Origin: Thalassospiraceae bacterium LMO-SO8
GTDB taxonomy: Bacteria > Pseudomonadota > Alphaproteobacteria > Rhodospirillales > Casp-alpha2
Direction of reading: 5' to 3'
DNA length: 64,000 nt
NCBI GenBank assembly: GCA_031655335.1
Contig: CP134226.1
Coordinates: 124,001 to 188,000, forward strand
The notes below the pieces were generated by a model. It saw nothing but the letters and a program-made list of their open reading frames with translations, had not been told where the DNA came from and searched no databases. The position numbers and the translations under genes are program-made. Of this stretch, positions 30,637 to 32,067 are shown piece after piece (within the stretch, counting starts at the first letter, position 1; every line of letters starts with the position of its first letter).

Positions 30637-30645
30637 TTATCCACA
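30637..30645 (+). promoter_or_regulatory. Consensus DnaA box
   Basis: TTATCCACA is an exact match to the strict DnaA-box consensus, located 5 bases before the -35 hexamer of the predicted SOS promoter. About half a match per 64 kb is expected by chance, so its position is more telling than its presence. Confidence 0.4.
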
Positions 30646-30650
30646 GGCTC

Positions 30651-30679
30651 TTGACTTAAGAACAAAAAGAGAACATTTT
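30651..30679 (+). promoter_or_regulatory. Probable promoter of the SOS-controlled small gene
   Basis: TTGACT (30651-30656) is a good -35. The best -10 is weak (CATTTT, 30674-30679, 17-base spacer). The LexA box fills the spacer, a typical place for repression. Confidence 0.45.
30660..30674. promoter_or_regulatory. LexA binding site (alphaproteobacterial SOS box)
   Basis: GAAC-AAAAAGA-GAAC is a perfect GAAC-N7-GAAC direct repeat, equal to GTTC-N7-GTTC on the other strand, the established LexA box of Alphaproteobacteria. The A-rich spacer is also typical. It lies between the -35 and the ribosome site of the following 93-residue gene. Confidence 0.75.
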
Positions 30680-30701
30680 AAGAGTCAGATTGGAGTTTGC
30701 C

Positions 30702-30983
30702 ATGAACGCCCACCGCCATGCCCAAGCCCTCCCGCAGCCGGATACCGGCTTCGACACCGATATCGCCCAGCCCGACCGGGAAACGGTCGAGGTTACCTAC
30801 TATCCCGTGCTGAAGAACCGCGCGCTCGGCCGCCGCATGACGCGGACCTTCGCCGCGCGGCGGGGCGAAAACCCCTTCAAGGCCGCCGAACGGGAACTGG
30901 CGCGCCGCTACAAGGTGCGCGACTACCTGATCTTCGACGCCCATCTGGCGCAGACCGGGTTTCTTGAACGGGCTGAATTCTAA
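30702..30983 (+). CDS. Predicted SOS-regulated small protein of unknown function
   Basis: A 93-residue, basic, soluble protein. The first 30 residues are His/Gln/Pro/Asp-rich and probably flexible. The rest reads ETVEVTYYPVLKNRALGRRM, then TRTFAARRGENPFKAAEREL, ARRYKVRDYLIFDAHLAQTG: a beta strand followed by Arg-rich helices. No signal peptide or membrane helix. The ATG at 30702 is preceded by TTGGAG at 6 bases. A perfect LexA box and a DnaA box lie directly upstream, so DNA-damage induction is predicted. It does not resemble SulA, SidA, ImuA/ImuB, RecN or TisB as I know them. The basic surface would suit nucleic-acid binding; this is inference. Confidence 0.75.
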   Translation: MNAHRHAQALPQPDTGFDTDIAQPDRETVEVTYYPVLKNRALGRRMTRTFAARRGENPFKAAERELARRYKVRDYLIFDAHLAQTGFLERAEF

Positions 30984-31017
30984 GAAATACTCTTGAGGAT
31001 GCGGCAGCAGGCCGGTG

Positions 31018-31503
31018 TCAGCCGGCCTGCTGTTGCGCGACCTTGGCGCGGAACATGCTGAGAAGCTCGTGCAGTTCCTTGCTCAGGGCGCCCTGATGGC
31101 CTTTCAGGCCCTGCCGGAACACGGCCTTCATGGCCATGATGTGCACGCGGATCACGTCGAGGTCGCGGGCCTTCAGGCGCGGCCGCCCCTCCAGATACTT
31201 GCACATCGAATCACCGACCACGGAAATCAGGGGAAAGCCGAAGCTGCCGCCCTGGCCGCGGGCCTCGTGGGTCATGTCGTAAAGCTGCTTGAGCCTGAGC
31301 GGGTCGGCCCGCCCGGACCGCGAGGTCTCAACAAAGGACTGCCAGAGCTTTTCCAGGTCATCCACCGCCCAGCCCTGGTACTGGCCGATCAGGTCGTCGG
31401 CGGCATTCACCGCCCGTAAGATGGCCTGTTCCATGGATGGTCCGCCGGGGCGAACCTTCTGGCTGATGTGTTTCTGCGGTTTCAGGAAGCGGGTTTCTGA
31501 CAT
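31018..31503 (-). CDS. Hpt-like phosphotransfer protein
   Basis: A 161-residue helical protein with a motif resembling the Hpt active site (xHxxKGxxxxxG): DMTHEARGQGGSFGFPLISV, with His in THEARG as the possible phosphorylated residue, followed by the helix GDSMCKYLEGRPRL. The N-terminus is basic and polar. It starts 9 bases after the stop of the adjacent response-regulator gene, so the two are co-transcribed and likely exchange phosphoryl groups. The Lys of classic Hpt domains is Arg here. Confidence 0.7.
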   Translation of the reverse strand: MSETRFLKPQKHISQKVRPGGPSMEQAILRAVNAADDLIGQYQGWAVDDLEKLWQSFVETSRSGRADPLRLKQLYDMTHEARGQGGSFGFPLISVVGDSMCKYLEGRPRLKARDLDVIRVHIMAMKAVFRQGLKGHQGALSKELHELLSMFRAKVAQQQAG

Positions 31504-31512
31504 GGCTGTTTC

Positions 31513-32067
31513 TTATTCTCTGGCGCGCCGTTCCTTGCCGCGGAATTCCCGCCGCTTGGGCGACCGGCGGTCGGGCCCGAAATAGCCACCCGTGGATTCC
31601 ACGTACTGGCGCTTGTCCTGCACCGACGTGACCAGTCGTTTGTACAGCGACGCCGCCGAGATCGGTTTGGCCAGGAAGGAATTGATGCCGGCGTCGCGCG
31701 CTTCCTCGACCCGCTTCATTTCCGTGTAGCCGGTCAGCATGATGATCGGCACGAACCGATTGGGCACGTTGGCGCCCTTGCGGATACGTTCAACGAACTC
31801 CAGCCCCGACACGGGCGCCATGTTCCAATCGGTGATGATCAGGTCCGGATCCATATTGACCACAAGGTCATAGGCTTCCTCGGCATCCGACGACACCGTG
31901 ACTTCCTTGATCCCGAATCCCTCAAGGAACGTGCGCACGAGTTCCCGCATGTGGAAACTGTCGTCCACCACCAAGATCCGCAATGCGCTGAAATCGTATC
32001 CGTCGCTCATCGATGCTTTGTGACCGGCGGATGCCGGGGTGTTTCCCCAATTCGTTTCAAGGCTCAT
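31513..32067 (-). CDS. CheY-like response regulator with GPDRR tail
   Basis: A 184-residue stand-alone receiver. ILVVDDSFHM supplies the acidic pair, the phosphoacceptor is the first Asp of IITDWNM, Thr is in IIMLTGYTEM and Lys in FLAKPIS. The C-terminal tail YFGPDRRSPKRREFRGKERR is strongly basic, related to the tail of the receiver protein at the left end of the window. An internal ATG at 32010 (MSDGYDFSAL) is an alternative start, because the first 19 residues look non-conserved. It is followed by an Hpt-like gene. Confidence 0.88.
   Translation of the reverse strand: MSLETNWGNTPASAGHKASMSDGYDFSALRILVVDDSFHMRELVRTFLEGFGIKEVTVSSDAEEAYDLVVNMDPDLIITDWNMAPVSGLEFVERIRKGANVPNRFVPIIMLTGYTEMKRVEEARDAGINSFLAKPISAASLYKRLVTSVQDKRQYVESTGGYFGPDRRSPKRREFRGKERRARE

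Follow-up and report, generated by a model that had tools for sequence, protein, structure and literature searches.

A small gene with a predicted LexA operator inside its promoter lies on the + strand of the stretch of DNA analysed here, which we refer to as the window and which comprises 64,000 nucleotides (positions 124001-188000 of a single 3.98-Mb contig). An earlier reading of the letters by themselves, the sequence-only reading, had described an open reading frame of 93 residues under a GAAC-N7-GAAC motif, with the motif placed between a good -35 element and a ribosome-binding site, and these coordinates were confirmed on the + strand. The features of the locus are given below, where carriers are the 13 genomes in which the gene was found and the genus is that of the window.

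30637..30645, + strand: TTATCCACA, five bases before the -35 element; kept in 7 of the 8 carriers of the genus and in 0 of the 5 others
30651..30656, + strand: -35 element TTGACT; TTGAC kept in 13/13 carriers
30660..30674, + strand: predicted LexA box GAACAAAAAGAGAAC, from motif search, ortholog conservation and matrix rank
30674..30679, + strand: presumed -10 element CATTTT, inferred; 17 bp from the -35 element and sharing its first base with the end of the box
30692..30695, + strand: ribosome-binding site GGAG; ATTGGAGTTTGCC identical in 7 of the 8 carriers within the genus
30702..30983, + strand: putatively SOS-controlled gene with a 93-residue product; ATG at 30702, stop at 30981-30983

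The presumed -10 hexamer is weak in the window's genome and reads CATACT, CATATT or CATAAT in some orthologs; the promoter scan gave a sole candidate, on the minus strand, and the pairing of TTGACT with CATTTT was absent from its output. As the box takes up the spacer that separates TTGAC from the -10-like hexamer, bound LexA would be expected to block RNA polymerase.

Elsewhere around the small gene the window holds a weakly transglutaminase-like gene, a response regulator, an ABC transporter and a gene that we take to be guaA. Convergent with the small gene is a gene for 161 residues (31018-31503, - strand), whose product has no match in Pfam or NCBIfam and which adjoins a CheY-like response regulator, the pair spanning 31018-32067 of the window. 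Motifs of both proteins are found beside the small gene in 8/8 carriers of the genus. An inverted repeat, CAGCAGGCCGG / CCGGCCTGCTG, occupies positions 31005-31032 at the convergent ends of the small gene and the 161-residue gene, where the terminator scan listed no terminator.

The element TTATCCACA is presumably a DnaA-box consensus, and in 7/8 species of the genus both it and a conserved sequence lying farther upstream, ATACTTAAGGCyTATTGAAT, are retained. Perfect copies number 9 in the genome, compared with 17 in the backward control, and one of them is at this locus. Together with the AT-rich upstream region the element had suggested that the locus might be a replication origin; this was rejected because the GC skew changes sign elsewhere. 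In 20 sampled 10-kb segments it becomes positive between 1.3 and 1.5 Mb and returns to negative values between 3.3 and 3.5 Mb (a single sample of the positive arm, that at 2.49 Mb, falls slightly below zero), while the locus lies at 0.155 Mb. Dual control of the small gene by DnaA is a possibility that the element raises.

Distribution of the gene

A protein search of 100 genomes, including that of the window, found the gene in 13: 8/8 in the genus, 5/40 elsewhere in the family (three further genera) and 0/52 in the rest of the order. Profile searches of 317 genomes of the order and of a 398-genome sample of the phylum returned no credible member beyond these 13 carriers, and in a sample of 385 genomes of the class they matched the window's own genome only. 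Three candidates are left out of the carrier count, namely L112 (E 6.5e-4) and L113 (E 1.8e-3) from the order search and L161 (E 6.2e-4, inside a 276-codon frame) from the phylum sample; they were rejected as relatives, being unlike the family by eye and having no perfect box in the sequence fetched for each. Within the genomes searched, the gene is seen only in four genera of one family, and its carriers are a few related, mostly uncultivated bacteria.

Conservation of the operator

Taken bare, the motif GAAC-N7-GAAC is weak evidence. It occurs four times in the window, compared with an expectation of 2.1, and 18 of 100 shuffles also reach four, so that the count alone is not above chance; genome-wide there are 130 occurrences, compared with 71 for the pattern read backward. 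Sites of the class with an AT-rich spacer, GAACAWWNNNNGAAC, are rarer and enriched (12 in the genome, 3 in the backward control). The copy at 30660-30674 stands out by its AT-rich spacer, by its position inside the promoter and by its retention in all 13 carriers.

This retention extends beyond the box itself, since TTGAC-N4-GAACAAAA-N3-GAACA precedes the gene in 13/13 carrier genomes at protein identities down to 33%. Absence of the box upstream of orthologs had been named in the sequence-only reading as an outcome that would speak against it, and no carrier shows such an absence. When the 13 carrier loci were aligned, 20 of the 25 operator columns were invariant, as against 0/40 columns just upstream and 1/40 just downstream; 14 of the 25 are fixed by the anchor pattern used to align the loci, and the weight therefore rests on the six further invariant columns and on the near-uniqueness of the operator in the order. 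Sought in the 317 genomes of the order, the 25-bp operator is present in 15, once in each, and 13 of these are exactly the carriers; the backward control gave 0 among the matches listed.

The other two genomes, G036 and G191, hold the operator in front of other genes. That in G036 is a frame which we take to be haloacid-dehalogenase-looking, and that in G191 encodes an 81-residue protein (L128:1223-1465) that, compared by eye, shows no sign of belonging to the family of the window protein. The 81-residue protein has matches in 11 of the 148 genomes around G191, itself included. Among 12 loci of its family that were fetched there is one perfect box, there are two one-mismatch boxes close upstream (L130 and L140, the two 77%-identical copies in G158), and the remaining nine have no box close upstream. 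The 81-residue protein is possibly the product of another small SOS gene.

Relation to lexA, recA and other boxed genes

A lexA gene above the family cut-off was found in 12 of the 13 carriers, the window's own genome included, the remaining one being G007 (83% complete), and upstream of lexA all 12 loci have GAAC[TC]AAA[GA]TAGAAC in the same orientation. A perfect box precedes recA in 8/8 genomes of the genus, 178 bp upstream in seven and 238 bp upstream in G004; within 1.5 kb upstream of recA there is none in the five carriers outside the genus, and G004 has a further, partial recA match that likewise lacks a perfect box.

The sequence-only reading had proposed scanning the genome and ranking the site against those of lexA and recA. 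Using a matrix built from the 12 lexA and 8 recA boxes, with which 102 of the 130 own-genome sites were scored, we find the site at 30660-30674 in second place, below lexA only and above recA, and this rank is unchanged when the matrix is built without one lexA box and one recA box of the own-genome type. With the lexA boxes alone the site is again second, and with the recA boxes alone it is eighth. The top seven matrix sites also include L031, L033, L032, L037 and recA; the small gene's site outranks those of the S24, vsr, tag and recA genes. Pfam families at the boxed loci are Peptidase_S24 (L031), Vsr (L032), Adenine_glyco (L037), UPF0047 (L033) and Glyoxalase (L035), and the S24 peptidase gene behind a high-ranking box is presumably UmuD-like.

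Two observations on these loci may be recorded in their own right. The vsr gene (L032, own-genome position 1330512) and the tag gene (L037, 3193577) lie directly behind high-ranking LexA boxes, which suggests SOS control of very-short-patch repair and of 3-methyladenine glycosylase in this genome. The box at L034 (1902776) is flanked by a 120-residue frame with no Pfam match and, divergently, by an S24 repressor-like gene, whose protein has a marginal HTH in Pfam; of the 7 genus loci of the matching gene that were examined, that of the own genome included, 6 retain a similar box, compared with 0/2 outside the genus.

Could the box be bound by another regulator, or be a chance motif, so that the small gene stands outside SOS control? 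The abundance of GAAC-N7-GAAC in the genome and the missing recA boxes of five carriers would be in keeping with this, but they are set against conservation in every carrier, an operator found once per carrier genome, and membership of the same class as lexA's own box, and we consider this reading highly improbable. The small gene very probably belongs to the LexA (SOS) regulon.

Membership of this regulon would also suit an accessory factor of a repair or mutagenesis protein, such as a protein that modulates RecA, a translesion polymerase or a helicase in the manner of DinI or UmuD. The small gene shares its box class with the lexA, recA, S24 (UmuD-like), tag and vsr genes, and its product is of a fitting small size; on the other hand, no repair gene was recognised among its neighbours in the window, and no DinI- or UmuD-like family was matched in Pfam or NCBIfam. 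We judge such an accessory role to be rather improbable.

Sequence of the product

Fifteen ortholog pairs were compared for dN/dS, of which three were saturated at synonymous sites; ten comparisons with the window copy gave 0.16-0.35 and two other pairs gave 0.08-0.10, values which support purifying selection on the coding sequence in the sampled pairs. The 13 orthologs are 64-101 residues long and share 13 invariant columns (V31, P35, K38, N39, L42, G55, E56, A62, R64, L66, D74, Y75 and I77). The earlier description of the product as basic holds for the core, which has a net charge of +4 to +8 and a pI of 9.9-11.4; it does not hold for all full-length orthologs, whose pI ranges from 6.6 to 11.5, with two of the 13 at 6.6. 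No hydrophobic segment was found in any of the 13 by the Kyte-Doolittle scale, the highest 19-residue mean being 0.46.

Against PHROGs and PADLOC the window protein scores nothing below E 0.001, and in Pfam and NCBIfam it reaches no cut-off; neither it nor its 12 orthologs match SulA (PF03846), which agrees with the statement of the sequence-only reading that the product resembled no SOS protein known to it. A sequence search of the PDB gave one match, at E 1.5. Three sub-threshold resemblances were treated as chance: Pfam YmdB (window protein E 0.19; seen in 3/13 orthologs with a best E of 0.047), the VapC-type NCBIfam TIGR00028 (E 0.11; score 12.7 bits, cut-off 73.6) and PHROG 9778 (one ortholog, E 0.2). 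Neither the gene nor a Rhodospirillaceae SOS regulon is described in the titles and abstract openings among the matches listed in the literature searched. The protein family appears to be new within these libraries and this literature, and to be lineage-restricted; small SOS genes of unknown function are, as a kind, already known.

LexA often controls genes of toxins and mobile elements, and the small gene might be one of these, prophage-like or part of a toxin-antitoxin pair, with borrowed LexA control. The sub-threshold VapC-type resemblance would speak for this. Against it, no relatives were found in phages, plasmids or viral contigs, the viral and defence libraries (PHROG, PADLOC) are without a match to the window protein, and the same convergent genes accompany the small gene throughout the genus; we give this origin very little credence.

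Predicted fold

AlphaFold2 models the window protein as a strand (27-36), a second strand (46-52), a helix (58-69) and a third strand (75-83), with a mean pLDDT of 73.8, a pTM of 0.55 and 37 of the 93 residues at pLDDT 90 or above. The blocks from residue 31 to 80 all average pLDDT 88-93, and residues 4-23 and 86-93 are under 50; orthologs of the window's genus have an extra N-terminal tail, which is poorly conserved. The model of a 64-residue ortholog has the same order of elements (mean pLDDT 87.5, pTM 0.68). The product is thus predicted to be built on a basic beta-beta-alpha-beta minidomain of 55-60 residues.

In Foldseek and VIA-align comparisons the nearest folds are RNA polymerase epsilon (YkzG), phi29 p6 and ribosomal proteins, the last of which we take to be of the eL20/LX type; all of these resemblances are weak and non-significant, with PDB matches at E 0.2 or worse and Z up to 6.2. 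YkzG is the first Foldseek match of the 64-residue ortholog (E 0.2, Z 4.8-5.4, 14-18% identity; not significant), and phi29 p6 compares with the window protein or ortholog at Foldseek E 0.21-0.34, Z 5.2-5.8 and 12-19% identity (not significant). The best match in the viral fold library has an E of 0.025, and the matches there are mostly uncharacterised phage proteins. A shared fold by itself shows no function. The pI of the core and the weak fold resemblances would fit nucleic-acid binding, and because all three of the nearest folds act on nucleic acid or its machinery and the core is basic, we favour a role there, with modest confidence.

A different partner is conceivable for a small SOS-induced protein: it could be an inhibitor of cell division or replication that takes the place of SulA or SidA in this lineage, its target being a divisome or replisome protein and not nucleic acid. 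The 29-residue SidA is reported as the main SOS-induced division inhibitor of Caulobacter (PMC4211646). A SulA-family gene was found in 0/13 carriers (the control search matched E. coli only, 1/14), and tight conservation of the operator suits a harmful product. The small protein, however, has no hydrophobic segment, unlike SidA, which is described as an inner-membrane protein (PMC4211646), the window protein has no SulA match, and its basic core and predicted fold offer no link to FtsZ or FtsW. We regard this possibility as unlikely.

Discussion

We propose that the small gene encodes a soluble damage-induced factor that acts on DNA, RNA or RNA polymerase. In the undamaged cell LexA would sit on GAAC-N7-GAAC inside the TTGAC promoter and keep the gene off. 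DNA damage would lead to RecA-stimulated self-cleavage of LexA and thereby to release of the gene, whose small, soluble and basic product would act stoichiometrically, through binding to DNA, to RNA or to a machine that works on nucleic acid (RNA polymerase, for example), for as long as the damage persists. Taken as a whole, that is LexA control together with binding of nucleic acid or polymerase by the product, the proposal is tentative and falls a little short of an even chance.

A perfect box is kept in front of the small gene in 13/13 carriers, compared with 8/13 for recA. Retention of the operator beyond that of recA and its high rank point to an important, tightly silenced effector. A protein family that stays below the cut-off of every library searched has retained an operator that ranks among the best LexA sites of its genome. 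SOS-induced genes are reported to differ between bacteria, with many lacking a known function (PMC13384398). The small gene offers a defined target for studying how these Rhodospirillales handle DNA damage. At its most far-reaching, and we consider this doubtful, the gene could represent a new family of SOS effectors: a LexA-repressed mini-protein with a fold like that of p6, epsilon or Gp2, which after damage would coat DNA or bind to RNA polymerase, might also be timed by DnaA through TTATCCACA, and would give the lineage a checkpoint of transcription or of the nucleoid not known elsewhere.

Comparison with known systems

The closest regulatory parallel is with the LexA regulon of Caulobacter and other Alphaproteobacteria; in Caulobacter 47 genes are reported to be directly regulated by RecA-LexA, with the motif GTTCN7GTTC (PMC12700426). 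The small gene has the same operator motif in its promoter, and its box is of the same class as that of lexA in its own genomes, but it differs from the regulon's genes in that its product reaches no family cut-off in the libraries searched and is seen in one bacterial family only. With SidA and SulA it has in common a small product and apparent SOS control; SidA, however, is described as a 29-residue inner-membrane protein (PMC4211646), whereas the window family has 64-101 residues and no hydrophobic segment, and SulA differs in that PF03846 is matched by neither the window protein nor its 12 orthologs. Phi29 p6 resembles the predicted fold in having a helix placed between the final two strands of its beta sheet, but its core is described as having four strands, together with flexible dimerising and oligomerising regions (PMC10899789). 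RNA polymerase epsilon (YkzG) is alike in its length of about 60 residues and is reported to be structurally related to Gp2 of phage T7, although it differs in being described from Firmicutes (PMC7722741).
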